Assembly (NCBI RefSeq): GCF_001889305.1 | Contig: NZ_CP013074.1 | Span: forward strand, 434,001 to 498,000 | Direction: 5' to 3' | Source: Dehalococcoides mccartyi | GTDB lineage: Bacteria > Chloroflexota > Dehalococcoidia > Dehalococcoidales > Dehalococcoidaceae | DNA length: 64,000 nt | In this document: positions 1 to 44,627 of the stretch, piece by piece | Layout: every line of letters begins with the position of its first letter | Numbering within the stretch: the stretch's first letter is position 1 | Notes under the pieces: generated by a model | Databases searched by the model: none | Told to the model about the DNA's origin: nothing | Seen by the model: the letters and a program-made list of their open reading frames with translations, nothing else | Position numbers and translations under genes: made by a program

Positions 1-596
1 ATGTGCCGCTGCTGGCTATGAATCTGGCTTATGGGCTGAAAAGCGTGGATATTTACGGCAGTGAGGCGGTTGAAGAAGTGGTTACCAAGCCGCCTTTTTC
101 CGGCGGTTTTTACCCTGATTTTTTTACCCGCCCGCCATCTACTCCGGTTTTGCGGTTTAATACAATTATTCCCGGTTCGGAGTTTGACTGCGAGGTTTAC
201 CGGATACTGCCGGTATCTGTACCCCATTCTCGGGATACCACCGGTTTTTGGGTAAAAGACTCAAACGGACATTCGTTTTTTTATACCTCGGATACTGGGA
301 TTGGCTTAGGGGATGTCTGGAAACAGATTGACCCGGAAATGCTTATTATCGAGCTGACCATGCCGAATAAACTTAGCGAGCTGGCTTTAAGCTCAAAACA
401 CCTTTCCCCTGAACTTTTGGAGACGGAGCTCAGGCTCTTTCGGGAGATAAAAGGGTATTTGCCAAAGATAGTCACCCTTCACACCACGCCTTTGTTTGAA
501 GCTGAAATCAAAACTGAAATAAAGGCAGTTGCTAAAAAAATGCATGCAGATATACTTATGGCTAGTGAAGGGCTAAAACTCCGGCTGGGAGAGTAG
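1..596 (+). CDS. MBL-fold metallo-hydrolase, C-terminal part (5' end outside window)
   Basis: The reading frame is open from the first base, so this is the C-terminal ~197 residues of a longer protein. Visible features fit the second half of a metallo-beta-lactamase fold, related to RNase Z or cyclic-nucleotide phosphodiesterases: a central SHSRDTTGF stretch, a YTSDTG segment whose Asp would bridge the metals, an IIELTMP strand, a KHLSP segment, and a late TLHTTPLFEAEI strand carrying a likely metal-binding His. The metal-binding HxHxDH motif would lie upstream and is not visible. The substrate cannot be told. It is followed after 2 bp by the Mut7-C gene, so the two are probably co-transcribed. 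Confidence 0.6.
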   Translation, partial: VPLLAMNLAYGLKSVDIYGSEAVEEVVTKPPFSGGFYPDFFTRPPSTPVLRFNTIIPGSEFDCEVYRILPVSVPHSRDTTGFWVKDSNGHSFFYTSDTGIGLGDVWKQIDPEMLIIELTMPNKLSELALSSKHLSPELLETELRLFREIKGYLPKIVTLHTTPLFEAEIKTEIKAVAKKMHADILMASEGLKLRLGE

Positions 597-2680: not shown

Positions 2681-3472
2681 ATGAATAAACAAACTGCTGC
2701 TGAACGACTTGTTGCCGTAGATATCGGCAATACCAGTGTAAATATAGGTATATTTGAGGGCGAAAAACTGCTGGCAAATTGGCATCTGGGTTCGGTTGCC
2801 CAGCGTATGGCTGACGAATATGCCGGTCTGCTTTTAGGCTTGTTGCAGCACTCAGGCATACGCCCCGAAGAACTAAATAGGGTAATCATGTGCAGTGTTG
2901 TGCCGCCCCTTACCACTACTTTTGAAGAGGTATTTAAAACTTATTTCAAGGCTGTTCCTCTGGTAGTGGGTGCAGGCATAAAGAGCGGGGTTAAGATACG
3001 AATGGATAATCCCCGTGAAGTTGGGGCTGACCGCATAGTAAATGCCGCTGCCGCCAGAGTGCTTTATCCGGGGGCGTGCATAATAGTGGATATGGGTACG
3101 GCCACTACCTTTGATACACTTTCGGAGAGCGGGGAATATATAGGCGGGGCGATTGCACCGGGTATTGCCACCTCGGCTCAAGCCATTGTAGAGAGGACAT
3201 CAAAACTGCCTAAGATTGAAATAATCCACCCCGCTAGAGCTATCGGTTCTAATACTGTTTCGGCTATGCAGTCAGGGGTATATTTCGGTTATATCGGGCT
3301 AGTGGAAGAACTGGTCAGACGGATTCAAGCTGAGTTGGGGCAGAAAACCAGGGTGATTGCTACCGGCGGATACGCCTCACTTATAGCCGAAGGCAGCCGT
3401 ATGTTTGACATAGTACGTCCTGACCTTACTCTTCAGGGGCTCAGGCTTATTTACCAGATGAATCAGGTTTAA
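2681..3472 (+). CDS. coaX: Type III pantothenate kinase
   Basis: A 263-residue ASKHA-fold kinase catalysing ATP-dependent phosphorylation of pantothenate, the first step of CoA synthesis. Visible motifs are AVDIGNTSVNIGIF at residues 13-26 (phosphate 1), GADRIVNAAAA in the middle, IIVDMGTATTFDTL (phosphate 2) and GGAIAPGI. Type III enzymes need a monovalent cation and are not inhibited by CoA. It lies directly upstream of coaBC, so three consecutive CoA steps are encoded together. Confidence 0.95.
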   Translation: MNKQTAAERLVAVDIGNTSVNIGIFEGEKLLANWHLGSVAQRMADEYAGLLLGLLQHSGIRPEELNRVIMCSVVPPLTTTFEEVFKTYFKAVPLVVGAGIKSGVKIRMDNPREVGADRIVNAAAARVLYPGACIIVDMGTATTFDTLSESGEYIGGAIAPGIATSAQAIVERTSKLPKIEIIHPARAIGSNTVSAMQSGVYFGYIGLVEELVRRIQAELGQKTRVIATGGYASLIAEGSRMFDIVRPDLTLQGLRLIYQMNQV

Positions 3473-37168: not shown

Positions 37169-38259
37169 TGTTTTATTACCCTCGGTATCATTCCGGCTCT
37201 CAGTGCCAGATCAGCCAGGACTATACAGGTCATAGCTTCCACTACGGAAACTGCTCTGGGTACGATGCAGGTATCATGACGGCCGCGTATTTCCAGACTG
37301 GTGTTGGTCATGGTATCAATATTTACGGTAGGTTGGGATAAAGATATGGAGGGGGTGGGTTTTACGGCCACCCTGAACTGAAGCGGCATGCCGTCTGAGA
37401 TTCCGCCCAGTACACCGCCGCAGTTGTTGCTGGTGGTGCGTATGTGGTTAGCCTGAATACTAAAAGGGTCGTTGTTTTTTGAACCGCGCAGGCGTGAAGC
37501 TTCAAAGCCCGCCCCGAATTCAACCCCTTTTACGGCCGGAATGGCAAACATAGCTTTGGCCAGTTCACCTTCCAGAGTATCAAACACCGGCTCTCCTAGA
37601 CCAACCGGCAGATTAAACCCTAAGCACTCTACTACCCCGCCCAGACTGTCACCCTCCTCAGCGGCTTGCTGGATAAGTGCCAGCATTTGTTTACTGGCCG
37701 CAAGATCAGGGCAGTTTACATCACTTTCGGAGATGTTCTGGCGGAGGTCTTTGGTTTTAGGCAATTTGGCTACTATTCCTCCCAGTTCGGCGGTATATCC
37801 AATCACCTCAATGCCGATAGTTGAAATAAGTTTACGGGCAATAGCGCCTGCCATAACATGTCCGGCGGTAATCCGTCCTGAGAAACGTCCTCCGCCGCGA
37901 AAATCATTGAAACCGCCGTATTTCACAAAGCCGGTAAAATCCGCATGTCCCGGTCTGATTTTACTGCGGGTGCGTTCATATTCGCTCGAGTCTATATTTC
38001 TGTTCCAGATGACCAGACAAATGGGTGCGCCGGTGGTGAAATTGTTGAATATGCCGGAAAATATTTCTATCCGGTCATCTTCACGGCGCGGCGTGGCATG
38101 CGCTTTTGCCCTGGATTTGCGTTTGTCTACTTCCACCTGGATTTCATCGACATTTATGGCCAGACCGGCCGGAACGCCATCAATTACTACTCCTACGCAG
38201 TCTCCATGGCTTTCGCCGAAACTGGTAATCTGAAACAGTTTTCCCAGACTGTTAGACAT
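37165..38259 (-). CDS. aroC: Chorismate synthase
   Basis: A 364-residue FMN-dependent lyase converting EPSP to chorismate. [18 protein letters not shown] at the N terminus and later [12 protein letters not shown]-type and [13 protein letters not shown] segments are conserved. It overlaps aroA by 8 bp and pheA by 4 bp. Confidence 0.97.
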
Positions 38260-39514
38260 CTTTTATTACCTTTCCGCCGAGGCTTTCCAGTTGCTCCCAG
38301 AAACCGGGGTAGGTTTTGGATACGCACTCAGCATCTGAAATATGGGTTTCTCCCGCAACCGCACCCAGTACACCGAAAGCCATGGCAATACGGTGGTCTC
38401 CGAAGCTGTCAATCTCTGTGCCTTTGGGATATCCGCCGTCAATAATCAGACGATCATCTTCTTCGGTAACATTTATGCCCATAGCAACAAGCCCCTGGCT
38501 TACCGCCCGGATACGGTTGGACTCTTTGATACGCGCCTGACGGACTCCGCTTAAAATACTTTGTCCTTTGGCACAGGCGGCCGCTACTGCCAGTGCAGGC
38601 AGCAAGTCAATGGAGTGGGTAAGGTCTGTGTTTATAGCTGAAAGGGGTTTGGGGCTTACCTTTACCCAGTTTTGGCCGCTTTCTGCTTCTGCCCCCATCT
38701 CGGTGAGGTATTTTATCATTATGCGGTCAGCCTGAAAGCTGTCCGTATCCAGGTTGGATACAAATACCGGGGCTGCAATAGCCCCCAGTGCCAGAAAGCT
38801 TGAGGCTGAAGACCAGTCTCCTTCTACTCGGTATCTGGCGGGCAGGTATGGCTGGGGCGGGATACTTATTTCCTGCCAGTTTATAGAAGAAAAGACCTTG
38901 ATACCAAAGCTTTCCAGTGTTTGTTTAGTCATTTTTAAATACGGCAGTGAAGCCGGCGGTGTAGCCAGATGAATTTCCAGCCCGTTTTTGCAGGCAGGCG
39001 CCATAAGCATAAGTGCTGAAACATATTGAGAGCTTATATTTCCCGGCAGGCTAACCTTTGAACGGGTTATCTCACCGCCCTTGATTACGGTAGTATTGCC
39101 GCGGGTTTCTATTTCTATGCCAAGCTGGTGCAGGGCTTGAATAAGGGGCAGCATGGGGCGTCTCATAAGGGAATGCCCAGCCAGCAGGTGGCATTCAAAT
39201 GGCAGTCTGGCACACACGGCTGACATAAAACGCAGGGTAGCGGCAGATTCGCGGCAGAAGAGGTTGCCTTCAGGTTTTTTGAAGGTATGGCCGGTAATCT
39301 GCCAGCTTCCGTCTTCAGTCTTGGTGTTTATATCTATACCCAGCCCTGAAAGCACCTGTTTGGTAGCCAGCGTATCATCTGCAATCAGCGGGCTTATTAT
39401 ATGGCTTTGGCCGTTTGCCTGGGCAGCTGCAACCAAACCGCGTATGGTATAGCTTTTTGAGGAAGGGACGGCGATTTCCCCGCCGGGTAAGCTTTTAGCC
39501 AGATGTATTTTCAT
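38252..39514 (-). CDS. aroA: 3-phosphoshikimate 1-carboxyvinyltransferase (EPSP synthase)
   Basis: A 420-residue two-domain enzyme joining PEP to shikimate 3-phosphate. [15 protein letters not shown] (N-terminal Lys/Ser), [12 protein letters not shown] and [11 protein letters not shown] are recognised active-site segments. The glyphosate-loop region reads [12 protein letters not shown], where the common form is GNSGTTMRL, a class II-like variation. It overlaps aroK by 20 bp and aroC by 8 bp. Confidence 0.95.
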
Positions 39515-40025
39515 ATTTCCTCAATCTGTTTTCTATTTCTTCACAGACTTCATGGCATAACTTGTTGTGGGTGGAGACTGTAATATCGGCCGCATCTTTG
39601 TATAGAGGCTGCCGGCTTTCAAGTAGTTTTATCATTTTATCCGAACGCTCGGCATTGTATAAAGGGCGGTTGGTATGGTTTCTCAAGCGGGCTTCCAGAT
39701 CTTCGGGGCGGCTTTCCAGGTAGATTACCAGACAGTTTAATCGCATAACACTCAGGTTTTGGGGTCGGGTAACTATACCGCCGCCGCAGTCTATAATCTG
39801 GCCTGATTGCCGGCAGACGTCTTCCAATACTCGGCTTTCCATCTGTCGAAAGTATTCTTCACCTTTTTCTTTGAATATGCTGCTTATGCTTAAACCTTCG
39901 CAGGTTTCTATGCAAGTATCTGTGCTGACCAGTGTTTTACCCAGCTTTTCAGAAAGCAGCTTTGAGACACTGGTTTTACCCGCACCCATAAAGCCTATCA
40001 GGGCGATGTTATTTTTCGTTTTCAT
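39495..40025 (-). CDS. aroK: Shikimate kinase
   Basis: A 176-residue P-loop kinase. Walker [15 protein letters not shown], the STD acidic pair, DCGGGIV and a lid with RNHTNRPLY are seen. It overlaps aroE by 17 bp and aroA by 20 bp, an unusually long run of overlaps. Confidence 0.95.
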
Positions 40026-40869
40026 CTAAAGCCAGCTCTGCTTCTTTCATCATCACCCGGAAAGGGGCTTTTTGGCTTGTCCAGATTTCAAATGACATAG
40101 CACCCTGCCAGACCAGCATTTCCAGCCCGTTTATTATCTTGGCGCCTTTATTTTCAGCCTCTTTCAACAGGCGGGTTTTACACGGGTTGTAAATAGCGTC
40201 TATAACTGTCAGGTCAGGACGCAGGAAACGGGCGGGGACAAGGCTTTGTCCGGTCAGATTTCCCATACCCACAGGTGTGCAGTTTACGATAATATCAGTT
40301 TCGGCTAGGACTTCTTCCAGATTGGTATCATTCAGTTCCAATCCCTGAGCCTTGCCATTAAAACGCAGGCACATTTTGCTAGCCAGGTCCTTGGCTTTTT
40401 CTTCCTGGCGGGCAAGTACAGTCAGGCGTCCGCCCAGTGTGCAAATAGCCAGTGCAATGGCATGGGCACTGCCTCCCGCACCCAGCAAGGCAAAGCGGTG
40501 TTTGGCCGGGGCAATACGGTTGTGTTCAAGTAAACGCACAAAGCCGCCAAAGTCAGTATTGTAACCTTTGAGCACACCGTTTTCATTTACAATGGTGTTT
40601 ACCGCTCCAATCTTTTTGGCAGCGGGGTCAAGTACATCTATATATTTGATAACCTCTATTTTGTGGGGTATGGTTACATTCAGACCGCGTATATTTAAAG
40701 GCCGCATGCTGGCAATTACGTTTTGCAGGTCTTCCGGTTTGGCAGCGACAGTCAAATACAAGTAATTCAGTTTGCAGTATTTGAAGGCCGCATTTTGCAT
40801 AGCCGGCGATATGGAGTGACTTACCGGGTAACCAATAATCCCGAATAATGCATCAGGTATGGTTTTCAT
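40009..40869 (-). CDS. aroE: Shikimate dehydrogenase
   Basis: A 286-residue NADP-dependent reductase of 3-dehydroshikimate. [17 protein letters not shown] binds shikimate, [13 protein letters not shown] carries the catalytic Lys, and [15 protein letters not shown] is the nucleotide motif. It overlaps aroD by 17 bp and aroK by 17 bp. Confidence 0.96.
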
Positions 40870-41521
40870 AATTTACAGACCGGTAGATTTCTATCATTTG
40901 AGCCAGGGTCATCTGACCTGATGCAGACTTATTGCCGTCATTCAGGCTGGCGTAGGTAAAAGGGCTTCCGGCCAGCGGACAGAGTATACGGCTCAGAATG
41001 CCCGGTTCCCCCATGGCAAAAGCGACAATTTCCTTATCCGGCATCTCCTTTATCAAATTAAGCAGCTTAATATTATCATTTATTGAGGCGGCAGTGGTAA
41101 TTACCTTATATATATCCGCCGGATAGGTGAGCATGTCCTTTACAAGAGTTTTGAGTTCAGCGGCGGAAGGAGTGTCAGTAAAATTATGATGGGATAACAA
41201 ACACTTCGCCTGCGGCCTGAGCCGCTTAAGTATTTCCCCAAGGTTGGGGCTGGAATATTCAATATCCAGCATAAATGCACCCGCTGCGGCGGCTTTTTCA
41301 AGTCTGCTTATCCGCTCTTCTTCGCTGCCGCTAAAACTGCCCCCTTCGGCAGCCCTGCGGCAGGTGGCTATAAATGGTTTATTAAGCATTGCTGCTGTTT
41401 CCTGCCAGCTTTCACCCAGAAGGTCCAGCCTTAGTTCATAAAAGGCCGCACCTTCGCTTTTTTTCAGGCTTTCGGCCTCCGGCAGCCGGGTGATTACGCA
41501 ACAGATGGATGGGGTTTTCAT
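40853..41521 (-). CDS. aroD: 3-dehydroquinate dehydratase, type I
   Basis: A 222-residue Schiff-base class I dehydroquinase. FYELRLDLL, the catalytic LLSHHNFTDTP (His) and YKVITTAAS (Schiff-base Lys) are visible. It overlaps aroB by 4 bp and aroE by 17 bp. Confidence 0.94.
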   Translation of the reverse strand: MKTPSICCVITRLPEAESLKKSEGAAFYELRLDLLGESWQETAAMLNKPFIATCRRAAEGGSFSGSEEERISRLEKAAAAGAFMLDIEYSSPNLGEILKRLRPQAKCLLSHHNFTDTPSAAELKTLVKDMLTYPADIYKVITTAASINDNIKLLNLIKEMPDKEIVAFAMGEPGILSRILCPLAGSPFTYASLNDGNKSASGQMTLAQMIEIYRSVNYENHT

Positions 41522-42597
41522 TTCATCTCCTCCAGTATGGAAATGACATCTTCCCTTAAAATATTTTCAGCTATCAAAGGTTCTTCCGGCCTTTTTAAAA
41601 GTATGAAACGTATACGTCCGTCGGATACCTTTTTATCATGGTGCATGGCATCTATAATTTTTTCGGGGTCTATATCTTGGGGTTTGGTGGGCAGACCGAA
41701 ATCAGCTATCAGTTTTTCCAGCCGCAGTACAGTCTCATTTTCACATAAACCCAGTTTTACCGAAAGCCTTGAGGCAAAACACATACCTATAGCTACTGCT
41801 GCCCCGTGGCTCTGGCTGAAAGAGGAAGTACTTTCCAAAGCATGTCCCAGGGTATGCCCGAAGTTAAGTATGTTTCTGATGCCGCGGTCAGTTTCGTCCT
41901 GGCAGACAATGCCGGCTTTGATAGCCGCAGTTTGGCTTATTATATCTTCCATTATCTCCGGAGAGCGGTCTTTGATAGCCTGGGTATTTGTCTCAAGCTG
42001 CTTGAACAGTTCGCTGCTGCCAATAGCGGCACTCTTTATTATTTCCGCCATGCCGCAGGCAAATTCTTTTTCAGGTAGGGTTTTAAGGCAGCTGATATCA
42101 GAAATAACCAGCCTTGGCTGATAGAAACTGCCGATAATATTTTTGATACCGCTATGGTTTACCGCTACCTTGCCGCCGATGCTGGAATCTACCTGTGACA
42201 GCAGGCTGGTAGGCAGATGGATAAGAGGGACGCCCCGCTGGTAGGTAGCGGCCACAAATCCGCTCAAATCGCCTATTACCCCGCCGCCTAAAGCCAGTAT
42301 GGGAGTATTTCTTTCGGCAAAGTGGTTTATCAGCTGGGGATAGATGTGGGCGGCCATATCCAGTGATTTATGTATTTCGCCCTCAGGCAGTTCCAGAAAC
42401 AGGCTTTCAATGCCATTTGCCTCAAGGTGTTTTTTCAGCTTTTTGCCGTAAAGCCTGTTTATATCTATATTGGTTATGACTATTACTCTGTCACAGGGTA
42501 CGTCATCCTTCAGAAGGCTGGCTGTTTCAGACAGCAAGTCACTTCCTATGAGTATTTTGTATTCACGCCCGCTTAGATTAAGCCCTATACTTTTCAA
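41518..42597 (-). CDS. aroB: 3-dehydroquinate synthase
   Basis: A 359-residue NAD- and metal-dependent enzyme. ALGGGVIGDLSGFVAATYQRGV is the signature, shown here in part (GGGVIGDLSGFVAATYQRG), and FGHTLGHALE carries the metal His. It follows aroF by 19 bp and overlaps aroD by 4 bp. Confidence 0.96.
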   Translation of the reverse strand: MKSIGLNLSGREYKILIGSDLLSETASLLKDDVPCDRVIVITNIDINRLYGKKLKKHLEANGIESLFLELPEGEIHKSLDMAAHIYPQLINHFAERNTPILALGGGVIGDLSGFVAATYQRGVPLIHLPTSLLSQVDSSIGGKVAVNHSGIKNIIGSFYQPRLVISDISCLKTLPEKEFACGMAEIIKSAAIGSSELFKQLETNTQAIKDRSPEIMEDIISQTAAIKAGIVCQDETDRGIRNILNFGHTLGHALESTSSFSQSHGAAVAIGMCFASRLSVKLGLCENETVLRLEKLIADFGLPTKPQDIDPEKIIDAMHHDKKVSDGRIRFILLKRPEEPLIAENILREDVISILEEMK

Positions 42598-42616: not shown

Positions 42617-43672
42617 TTAGTGTTTTTTCACCAGTTTGTTTATCTGGCGGCAAGTAGTTATAAGCTCTTTCAGTTCCGGCGGAGTAATCATCTGTGAAGC
42701 ATCTACCAAAGCCTCTGCCGGGTTGGTATGCACTTCAACCATCAGCCCGTTAGCCCCGGCAGCCATGGCAGCACAGCTCATGCTGTATATCAGGTCACGC
42801 CGCCCGGTGGCATGGCTGGGGTCAACCATAATGGGCAAATAGGTTTCCTTCAGGGCTACCGGCACGGCTGCCAAATCCAGATTGTAACGGGTGAAACTTT
42901 TACCTTTTCCCACCGGCACTATGCCTCTTTCGCATAATATTATATCCTTATTGCCCTCTGCGGCTATATATTCTGCAAAGGAAAGGAATTCCTCCATGCT
43001 GGCCCCGAAGTGGCGTTTGTACATAACCGGTTTGCCTTTTCTGGCAACTGTTGCCAGCAGGTCCTGGTCATACATATTGCGTGAACCCACCTGGAGTATA
43101 TCTACAAATTCGGCTACCAAATCCGCCTGGGATTCACCCCGTATCTCGGTCATTACCGCCATCTCAAAGCGTTCACCGGCTTCTTTCAGCCATGACAGGG
43201 CTTCGGTGGCTTCATCCTTGCCGGCAGAGCCCAGCCCCTGGAAAGAATGGACAGATGAGCGGGGTTTGTAAACGCCGCCTCTTAGTATCTGGGCACCAGC
43301 CATCTTTGCCCCTTCGGCTATCTTCATCAGGGCTTCTTTGCTTTCTACCGCGCAAGGTCCGGCAATGAAGACAGGCTCGTCCCCGCCGATAGTTATATTT
43401 TTTACTTTTATTTCACGGGTCAACCCCTCAGCCTGCCACAGGTTTGAGTATTCGCGGCTGATAAGCTTGTACGGGGTTTCTACCATACGGGCTTCCTTGA
43501 CACCGGGCAAGCTGGAAAAGTAAGCAAACGGGATGGATTTTTCATCTCCTATCAGGCCGATAATGGTTCTGAACGCCCCCTTTGAAACGTCGGTCTTGAG
43601 ACCGCAGCGGCGAACCTCGACAATTACGTTTTCTAGCTCTTCCGGGGTGGCATCCTTTTTCATGATAATCAT
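42617..43672 (-). CDS. aroF: 3-deoxy-7-phosphoheptulonate synthase (DAHP synthase), type I-beta
   Basis: A 351-residue first enzyme of the shikimate pathway. An N-terminal ferredoxin-like regulatory domain (about 1-70) precedes the barrel, as in Thermotoga-type enzymes where Phe or Tyr inhibit. IAGPCAVESKEAL and ILRGGVYKPRSSVHSFQG are the PEP and phosphate-binding segments. AGGAG lies upstream of the start. It is the first structural gene after the attenuator. Confidence 0.96.
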   Translation of the reverse strand: MIIMKKDATPEELENVIVEVRRCGLKTDVSKGAFRTIIGLIGDEKSIPFAYFSSLPGVKEARMVETPYKLISREYSNLWQAEGLTREIKVKNITIGGDEPVFIAGPCAVESKEALMKIAEGAKMAGAQILRGGVYKPRSSVHSFQGLGSAGKDEATEALSWLKEAGERFEMAVMTEIRGESQADLVAEFVDILQVGSRNMYDQDLLATVARKGKPVMYKRHFGASMEEFLSFAEYIAAEGNKDIILCERGIVPVGKGKSFTRYNLDLAAVPVALKETYLPIMVDPSHATGRRDLIYSMSCAAMAAGANGLMVEVHTNPAEALVDASQMITPPELKELITTCRQINKLVKKH

Positions 43673-43713
43673 TGTTTGCTTTCTCCTTTGCTTTTTATAC
43701 CCGTATAAATCAA

Positions 43714-43740
43714 AAATCCTCCCGTTGCCTGGGAGGATTT
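43714..43740 (-). terminator. Attenuator terminator before aroF
   Basis: On the minus strand AAATCCTCCC, a 7-base loop, GGGAGGATTT, then TTGATTT. This 10 bp perfect stem with T-run sits between the leader ORF and aroF, so it would stop aro transcription unless prevented. Confidence 0.88.
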
Positions 43741-43807
43741 CTAACTTACTAACTGGTGATTATTGATTTTTTAGTAAAACGTTATCTCCCAAGCAAACTT
43801 GCCTTGG
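43725..43807 (-). promoter_or_regulatory. Attenuator alternative structures (pause hairpin and antiterminator)
   Basis: Minus-strand RNA. Segments 1:2 (43789-43807) form a CCAAG/CUUGG-based hairpin within the last leader codons. Segment 2, UUGCUUGGGAG (43786-43796), can instead pair over 11 bp with segment 3, CUCCCAGGCAA (43725-43735), with only one G-U pair. Segment 3 is the left arm and loop of the terminator, so 2:3 pairing excludes termination. Segments 1 and 3 share AGGCAA, as expected for competing partners. Confidence 0.8.
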
Positions 43808-43847
43808 TAAAGTAATAATAGTTCTTAAAGGATTTAACGTTTAACAT
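43782..43847 (-). CDS. Aromatic operon leader peptide (21 codons)
   Basis: The ORF begins ATG at 43847 and ends TAA at 43782-43784. It carries Phe at codon 7 and an uninterrupted Tyr-Tyr-Tyr-Phe run at codons 10-13, then nine codons that overlap the 1:2 hairpin. Stalling of a ribosome at the Tyr/Phe codons would cover segment 1 and free segment 2 for antitermination, raising expression of the Phe/Tyr pathway when charged tRNA is scarce. No Shine-Dalgarno is evident; the promoter suggests a near-leaderless mRNA. Confidence 0.8.
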   Translation of the reverse strand: MLNVKSFKNYYYFTKASLLGR

Positions 43848-43873
43848 AGCTGAATGACAATAGCATAGCTGAA
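43845..43873. repeat. Direct repeat of 10 bp at the aro transcription start
   Basis: CATAGCTGAA occurs at 43845-43854 and again at 43864-43873, 19 bp apart. One copy covers the leader start codon and probable transcript start, the other lies in the promoter spacer. It could be an operator or a small duplication. Confidence 0.4.
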
Positions 43874-43886
43874 AAGGGTTTGTCAA
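43857..43886 (-). promoter_or_regulatory. Promoter of the aromatic operon
   Basis: Minus strand TTGACA (43881-43886), 18 bp, TATTGT (43857-43862). The expected start point is about 43849-43851, only two to four bases before the leader ATG at 43847. Confidence 0.6.
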
Positions 43887-43908
43887 GAAAACTATTTAGT
43901 GCTATTAT
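43880..43908 (+). promoter_or_regulatory. Distal promoter toward rpsL, sharing its -35 with the aro promoter
   Basis: Plus strand TTGTCA (43880-43885), 17 bp, TATTAT (43903-43908). Its -35 overlaps the minus-strand TTGACA almost completely within TTGTCAA, so the two polymerases could not bind at once. Confidence 0.5.
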
Positions 43909-44020
43909 ATGGGGTCTTTTTCCCTGGTGGTTGTTATCGGTCGGGCAGCGGATAAGTGCCCTGAGGCAGACGGGGATATCCCCCAGCTTTAAACCAGCGG
44001 GTTTTCAGTGATGGGTGGAG

Positions 44021-44049
44021 TTGACATCCATATATTGCTGTGCTAGACT
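44021..44049 (+). promoter_or_regulatory. Proximal promoter of the ribosomal superoperon
   Basis: TTGACA (44021-44026), exactly 17 bp, TAGACT (44044-44049). A start near 44056 would give a 5' UTR of about 137 bases before rpsL, which contains two hairpins. Confidence 0.65.
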
Positions 44050-44080
44050 AACTTTCTGTTTGTGGTTAGATTTCAGGTTT

Positions 44081-44136
44081 GACCATATCCGTTATGGTCG
44101 CCTTATGGGTTTTAAGGATGGGCCTGGCTCATCCTT
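44081..44136 (+). other. Two hairpins in the rpsL leader
   Basis: Hairpin A is GACCATA-TCCGT-TATGGTC (44081-44099). Hairpin B pairs AAGGATG at 44114-44120 with CATCCTT at 44130-44136, with further inner G-C pairs, giving a stem of about 10 bp. No T-run follows. They could bind a ribosomal protein for autoregulation; this is inference. Confidence 0.5.
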
Positions 44137-44192
44137 ATTGATTGAAAACGGGAAATTTATTAAAACAGCAATTGTTAACAGGAAGGTACATT

Positions 44193-44627
44193 ATGCCAAC
44201 GGTTAATCAGCTAGTAAGAAAAGGGCGCTCAAGTGCGGCCAAGAAGTACAAAGCACCTGCGCTGCATTACAGTTTCAATTCTCTGCGCAACAAGGTAGCC
44301 TTCGGTGACGGTTCCCCCCAGAAGAGGGGCGTCTGCACCCAGGTAAAGACTACTACCCCCAAAAAGCCGAATTCGGCTTTGCGCAAGATTGCCAGAGTAA
44401 GGCTGAGCAACCATATGGAAGTTACTGCATATATCCCCGGTGAAGGCCATAATCTTCAGGAGCACTCTGTGGTTCTGATACGTGGCGGCCGCGTCCCTGA
44501 CTTACCGGGTGTTCGCTATCACATCATCCGCGGTACTCTTGATACCGCCGGTGTGGCAAATCGGCAGCAGGGCCGCAGCAGATACGGCGCCAAAAAGGGC
44601 AAAGCCGCTCCTGCCAAGAAGAAATAA
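44193..44627 (+). CDS. rpsL: 30S ribosomal protein S12
   Basis: A 144-residue decoding-site protein. ATG 44193 is chosen because AGGAAGG lies just upstream and [12 protein letters not shown] is the family N terminus; the frame is open 17 codons further. [13 protein letters not shown] and [13 protein letters not shown] are conserved. About 14 extra residues between PAL and PQKRGVC are present, as in Bacillus-type S12. The C terminus is a Lys/Ala tail. Confidence 0.97.

Follow-up and report, generated by a model that had tools for sequence, protein, structure and literature searches.

The shikimate operon and its leader region

The window that we analyzed (64,000 nt of the Dehalococcoides mccartyi genome, which is a single contig of 1.52 Mb) carries a shikimate-pathway operon on its minus strand. 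The first gene (42617–43672) encodes a DAHP synthase (Pfam PF00793 and PF18152), and it is followed at 38252–42597 by those for dehydroquinate synthase, type I dehydroquinase, shikimate dehydrogenase, shikimate kinase and EPSP synthase, as assigned from Pfam matches and ORFs. Upstream of the leader described below lies rpsL (Pfam S12), divergently oriented on the plus strand, so that read-through from an upstream gene into the leader would not be expected.

Ahead of the DAHP synthase gene is a short minus-strand ORF (43782–43847; 21 codons plus a stop, MLNVKSFKNYYYFTKASLLGR) containing the run TAT TAT TAC TTT at 43809–43820, which encodes Tyr-Tyr-Tyr-Phe. A short ORF in which codons for the pathway's end products follow one another, ahead of structural genes that make the sensed amino acid (here DAHP synthase and five further shikimate-pathway enzymes), is the layout of a ribosome-mediated attenuator. 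In one congener (genome G013, locus L084), one of the Tyr control codons is changed synonymously, from TAT to TAC.

Directly after the control codons, folding places a pause hairpin (strands 1:2, CCAAGGCAAGTTTGCTTGG, 43789–43807 of the minus strand, −5.0 kcal/mol). Its strand 2 (TTGCTTGGGAG, 43786–43796) is also predicted to pair with 43735–43725, which takes in bases of the terminator loop, and this gives an antiterminator of −20.7 kcal/mol for 43799–43724 if strand 1 is excluded from the fold. An intrinsic terminator hairpin (strands 3:4) with its U tract separates the leader from the structural gene, at 43706–43748 of the minus strand (core 43740–43714), predicted at −23.1 kcal/mol for the full stem and −14.7 kcal/mol for the core. 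In silico these three structures compete, the alternative antiterminator excluding the terminator in these models, and folding of the whole leader is 4.6 standard deviations below shuffles. As modeled, the leader region is a classical attenuator arrangement, complete in silico.

An Rfam scan of the window returned no match at the gathering threshold, for a T-box or any other riboregulator. The best weak match was Phe_leader (RF01859), which lies over the terminator region at 24.6 bits, against a cut-off of 55; we therefore do not count the window leader as a member of that family. Elsewhere in the same genome, a T-box (RF00230, 98.8 bits, cut-off 93) is found ahead of trpE (1030–1297 of locus L155, at about 1351.2–1351.5 kb of G000:C1), and the trpE operon holds a second DAHP synthase; this T-box implies that two different types of attenuator govern the two DAHP synthases. 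A trp leader peptide considered ahead of trpE was rejected, as the T-box is there instead, and ilvB, considered as a leader candidate in the same genome, was set aside because it sits behind another open frame.

Conservation of the predicted attenuator among relatives

For comparison, we kept the best 80 of 101 DAHP synthase relatives; 71 of the 80 kept named relatives are labeled Dehalococcoidia, Dehalococcoidales, Dehalococcoides or Chloroflexi/Chloroflexota. A search of the class gave a match in 158 of 197 genomes, and among the 30 loci listed we used 17 (L082–L098, L082 being the window locus), leaving out L099–L111 (43–46% identity). Among the 97 loci L002–L098, four have less than 200 nt upstream (L064, L067, L068 and L072) and four have no leader (L066, L076, L077 and L081). 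Loci from other phyla or archaea (L070, L071, L078, L079 and L080) were excluded by hand, as were L062 (promoter cut off) and L074 (promoter unresolved), and L069 was excluded by script (TTG start only, 32 nt). This left 81 loci, 77 of them distinct, with the promoters of L044 and L095 set by hand; those relatives' loci that come from metagenome-assembled genomes (MAGs) may carry assembly faults.

The aromatic cluster is widely kept: a short upstream ORF with at least five F/Y/W in seven codons is found in 71 of the 77 relatives, compared with 2 of 770 dinucleotide shuffles. With a loose threshold of three, an aromatic-cluster short ORF appears in 89 of 93 upstream regions, including some from other phyla that look spurious and were excluded. 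The attenuator might instead work without translation of the ORF, as a protein-bound leader, T-box or riboswitch, and the T-box before trpE does imply that this genome uses other attenuator types. Given an aromatic cluster that stays in frame in so many loci, and the lack of any Rfam match at the gathering threshold in the window, we find such a translation-free leader barely credible.

The leaders of the sister genus, presumably Dehalogenimonas (L085, L087, L089 and L091–L094), have conserved C-termini (TWC..GT[ST]GR..V.A), possibly reflecting constraint from RNA pairing and not a function of the peptide. Outside Dehalococcoidia, a Clostridia MAG (L079) also has a short aromatic ORF, MKLNGFYFYGYYFFEPIS, ahead of its DAHP synthase, upstream of position 3001 and 17 nt from a TATATT.

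Our terminator script detected a terminator in 74 of the 77 relatives, one of these (L041) spurious, and missed it in L075, in the window locus L082 and in L083, the stems of the last two being nearly identical. The terminators of the window locus and L083 escaped the script because their stems run into the U tract; the terminator at 43706–43748 is also absent from the list given by a consensus scan of the window. For the antiterminator, the pairing of each locus's own strand 2 with its own strand 3 was matched by none of 2000 partner permutations over 73 loci. The mean for the leader and terminator arms was −10.2 with the locus's own partner and −9.5 with swapped partners, and own pairing beat mean foreign pairing in only 42 of 73 loci (Wilcoxon p 0.012). 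The per-locus signal is modest: for single loci, at most 5 of 100 shuffles were as good in 27 of 74.

Leader promoter and predicted transcription start

The earlier note had proposed a TTGACA-18-TATTGT promoter for the leader. Both sequence and promoter scan bear this out on the minus strand: the −35 box TTGACA (43881–43886) is separated by 18 nt from TATTGT (43862–43857), and the latter forms part of an extended −10, TGC-TATTGT (43857–43865), which adds a TG to the original proposal. The leader ATG (43847–43845) lies only 9 nt past the −10 and +1 is expected about 6–7 nt below it, so the 5′UTR should be about 2–4 nt long. From the position of the −10, we predict that transcription starts within 43849–43851 of the minus strand, with A43851 or G43850 likeliest; these two would give a 5′UTR of 3–4 nt, in keeping with the two to four bases first suggested.

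When the 106-nt region was dinucleotide-shuffled 2000 times, 2 shuffles matched the promoter score, which at 14.5 stands well above the 9.1 of the runner-up on the minus strand within 43840–44240. Pooled over the 77 loci, shuffles have a median score of 7.3 and a 95th percentile of 11.3. These scores come from an E. coli-like matrix of sigma-70 frequencies. The leader promoter is thus beyond chance, and it is the sole good one on its strand.

A perfect TATAAT is nonetheless present further upstream, at 43909–43904 (57–62 nt before the leader ATG), and the same attenuator could be transcribed from such a site, in which case the leader would be leadered and would initiate without a Shine-Dalgarno. 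This −10-like hexamer is kept in three genus genomes, and leadered leaders that lack a Shine-Dalgarno core are common among the relatives (27 of 44). Against this, the hexamer lacks a good −35, falls outside the eight best minus-strand sites, and lies opposite a strong −10 on the plus strand (43903–43908) that is directed toward rpsL and that it overlaps. In the three sister-genus loci scanned, moreover, the short-spaced promoter is again the top site. We regard a start further upstream as unlikely and continue with the start next to the leader ATG.

The gap between leader and rpsL contains two good plus-strand promoters toward rpsL, with −10 elements at 43903–43908 and 44044–44049. These are tandem extended −10 promoters (43880–43908 and 44021–44049 of the window) directed toward the rpsL operon, and the one nearer the leader has bases in common with the −35 region of the leader promoter. 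The divergent leader and rpsL-side promoters may interfere with one another.

Short and long promoter–leader spacing

In all 77 counted relatives (L062 and L074 having been left out beforehand), TTGACA is the −35 that scores best, and the promoter score exceeds the 99th percentile of shuffles in 74 of them. The distance from −10 to ATG is bimodal, at 5–12 nt in 33 and 14–47 nt in 44 of these distinct relatives, with modes of 7–9 nt in the short class and 26–29 nt in the long class and a single locus of the 77 at 13–16 nt. In the short class, 27 of 33 loci have 9 nt or less; the loci at 10–12 nt (6 of 77) come close to being leaderless without being strictly so. Where several in-frame ATGs precede the cluster (10 of 77 loci) the first was used, and taking the last instead moves three of the 77 (L007, L021 and L038) from short to long. 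In 10 loci a GTG or TTG lies further upstream in frame, and L060, counted as long, has a TTG at 9 nt.

Close to the window locus the short spacing is constant. It is 9 nt in all three genus genomes of the class search, in which the bases between −10 and ATG differ (CATTCAGCT, CATGCAAGT and CATTCAACT), and 7–8 nt in all seven sister-genus genomes of that search. Over the whole set the picture is more fluid: a careful tree of the 77 DAHP synthases has 15 changes between short and long, at least 10 of them forced by supported branches, and a quick tree likewise has 15, at least 5 of them forced. Shuffled short/long labels need about 25 changes, so that the state appears to be heritable yet labile.

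We lean somewhat toward the view that a single orthologous Dehalococcoidia attenuator has switched between leaderless and leadered forms at least 10 times while its control codons, terminator and antiterminator were kept. This repeated switching is the most interesting part of our analysis and is worth a comparison at the bench. If it is true, a stalling attenuator could exchange its mode of ribosome loading freely, as a module, and Dehalococcoidia would offer a ready natural experiment on loading mode versus attenuation timing, with matched pairs of relatives (such as the leadered L006, at 27 nt, and the predicted leaderless L092, at 7 nt, which are near each other on the tree) in which one could ask whether attenuation with 5′-end loading is faster, tighter or merely cheaper than with a leadered RNA.

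The same lability could be taken to mean that a compact promoter–leader layout produced the short spacing by accident, without functional meaning, and that initiation is inefficient and regulation weak: a feature so often lost and gained (15 changes on the best tree) cannot be essential. However, all 10 genomes of two genera keep 7–9 nt, and the three genomes of both genera that were examined for a second leader (below) have short spacing there too, and we consider a mere accident of layout very unlikely. The conserved spacing in the genus and sister genus and the bimodality among the 77 relatives support the earlier note's suggestion of a leaderless mRNA: the leader would probably be translated from an RNA with little or no 5′UTR.

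Lack of a Shine-Dalgarno at the leader start

It had also been noted that no Shine-Dalgarno precedes the leader. We confirm this: the 20 nt before the leader ATG give +1.0 kcal/mol with the 16S tail of the same genome, that is, no favorable pairing, whereas the DAHP synthase start has a Shine-Dalgarno, AAAGGAG. The leader thus combines an AUG start with no Shine-Dalgarno, as leaderless mRNAs do.

Among the relatives, none of the 33 short leaders has a Shine-Dalgarno 4-mer core (composition predicts 1.0); 17 of the 44 long leaders have one (11.4 predicted), as do 75 of the 77 DAHP synthase starts (40.2 predicted). Since only 1.0 in 33 is expected for the short leaders, the missing Shine-Dalgarno is weak evidence when taken alone. 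The comparison of leaders with DAHP synthase starts suggests that even the leadered relatives initiate the leader weakly or without a Shine-Dalgarno. Raw pairing energies have medians of −1.0 for the short and −4.25 for the long class (p 3.5e-9). For independent pairs on the careful tree, at the −3.5 threshold only, the median p is 0.008 (range 0.002–0.06), and on the quick tree it is 0.125, 0.375, 0.125 and 0.25 at −3.5, −3.0, −4.0 and −2.0, respectively. When the 20-mers are shuffled, the long class gives −4.5 against −4.1 shuffled (p 0.23) and the short class −1.0 against −1.4 (p 0.28). We therefore rejected the simple rule that leadered relatives carry a Shine-Dalgarno and leaderless ones do not, because the energy difference is mostly one of base composition, and rely on the core counts alone.

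Other leaderless-looking genes and a second aromatic leader

A scan of the window's own genome for TTGACA-17/18-TANNNT-4..34-ATG gave 59 matches, compared with 9 for the reversed pattern. ATGs 6–9 nt past the TANNNT open an ORF of at least 20 codons in 8 of 10 cases, versus 1 of 9 at 4–5 or 10–13 nt (p 0.005), although these bins were picked after the data had been seen and two leaders are among the 8; with the two leaders removed, the figures are 6 of 8 versus 1 of 9 (p 0.015). The leaderless-looking genes include, by Pfam, those for RNase III, a ComM-like Mg-chelatase and a FAS1-type dehydratase-domain protein; one leaderless-looking gene, L151, has an alternative start 15 nt downstream. The ORFs behind these 6–9 nt ATGs suggest that leaderless genes are in ordinary use in this genome. 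That seems to agree with a survey in which leaderless genes were detected in 4 of 12 Chloroflexi genomes, at 4.7% on average (PMC3160421).

Among the 59 matches is a second aromatic leader, MKYAGYTYFYFMFTGRTLCALSGAADE, which begins 6 nt from its −10 and is followed by a hairpin and a terminator. Its promoter and start lie at G000:C1:890060-890023 on the minus strand (locus L143, G000:C1:886000-892000), ahead of genes for an AMP-binding ligase and two branched-chain-type ABC permeases, and it points to an uptake or ligase operon under Phe/Tyr control. Of the 30 ligase loci listed from 61 order genomes, 24 have an F-x-F-T-type leader ahead of the ligase, by a filter that was written after four such upstream regions had been inspected (a stricter aromatic filter found few). 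Among the loci listed, the ATG is 6–13 nt from the −10 in 7 of 24, among them two genus genomes at 6 nt and the one listed sister-genus genome at 9 nt. In the other 17 the first ATG is 20–39 nt away (for L174, just a GTG at 27), and two of these 17 also have a TTG at 5 or 10 nt. This second short-spaced leader, together with the leaderless-looking ordinary genes, further supports the reading that the shikimate leader is probably leaderless.

Proposed mechanism

We think it likely that the shikimate operon is controlled by a ribosome-mediated attenuator and that the attenuator's leader peptide is translated from an mRNA that is leaderless or nearly so. The DNA itself shows the promoter and its spacing, the ORF, the terminator, the strands that can pair and their conservation; from them we infer the start site, translation, stalling and the governing amino acid. 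RNA polymerase would start 2–4 nt ahead of the leader ATG, and a ribosome would load at the 5′ end of the RNA without a Shine-Dalgarno, presumably as a 70S ribosome, by analogy with work on other leaderless mRNAs. The predicted RNA is unstructured in silico over its first 40 nt (0.0 kcal/mol), which would suit loading at the 5′ end. When Tyr-tRNA or Phe-tRNA is scarce, the ribosome would stall at Tyr-Tyr-Tyr-Phe; a ribosome halted on the Tyr codons would, from the size of its footprint, cover strand 1 of the pause hairpin. With strand 1 covered, strand 2 would pair with strand 3 in the antiterminator, and the operon would be transcribed. When charged tRNA is plentiful, the ribosome would reach the stop codon and cover strand 2, allowing the 3:4 terminator to form.

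Comparison with known systems

Open-licence articles on Dehalococcoides or Chloroflexi, searched by title or the start of the abstract, gave no account of this leader or of the group's start sites, and the passages searched in PMC3160421 and PMC5397173 do not name Dehalococcoid-. Within the literature searched, the mechanism is known and its membership in Dehalococcoidia is new. One view in the earlier note is not supported, namely that a stalling attenuator with a leaderless start would be an unusual design: Corynebacterium glutamicum, C. diphtheriae, Streptomyces lividans and Sinorhizobium meliloti already have published leaderless attenuator leaders.

The C. glutamicum aroR transcript is reportedly leaderless. 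For this Phe-Tyr-Phe leader, located ahead of aroF, enhancement under Phe limitation is described (Neshat 2014, as cited in PMC11802643; PMC4046766). As in our case, a DAHP synthase gene stands behind an aromatic leader peptide; the codons are Phe-Tyr-Phe, with Tyr having no effect, rather than Tyr-Tyr-Tyr-Phe, and the phylum is different. For C. glutamicum ilvBNC (IlvL), transcription begins a single nucleotide from the leader ATG (Morbach 2000, as cited in PMC11857589, by its title a leader without a ribosome binding site), and with AGG in place of that ATG expression falls by 80% (PMC11857589). It resembles the Dehalococcoides leader in being a stalling attenuator with +1 next to the leader ATG (predicted here), and differs in its branched-chain codons, its place in the Actinobacteria and its mapped start site.

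In C. diphtheriae, the start site of the ilvB leader is at the start of the leader, which is called leaderless (PMC5784534); this leader, too, is actinobacterial and has branched-chain codons. The same paper defines leaderless mRNAs by a 5′UTR of 0–5 nt, a range that includes the 2–4 nt predicted here from the promoter position. Start-site data for S. lividans identify leuL1/2, trpL1/2, ilvL, metL and thrL as leaderless attenuator leaders (PMC8079986), and unlike ours, none of the eight leaders listed there is a Tyr/Phe leader. In S. meliloti, the 5′ end of the attenuated RNA of trpL (rnTrpL) coincides with the leader ATG (PMC7298713), much like the 5′UTR of about 2–4 nt predicted for our leader. 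The S. meliloti system differs in its Trp codons, in belonging to the Alphaproteobacteria, and in that its peptide also acts in trans. The predicted Dehalococcoidia set would thus extend leaderless attenuator leaders beyond Actinobacteria and Sinorhizobium to another phylum.
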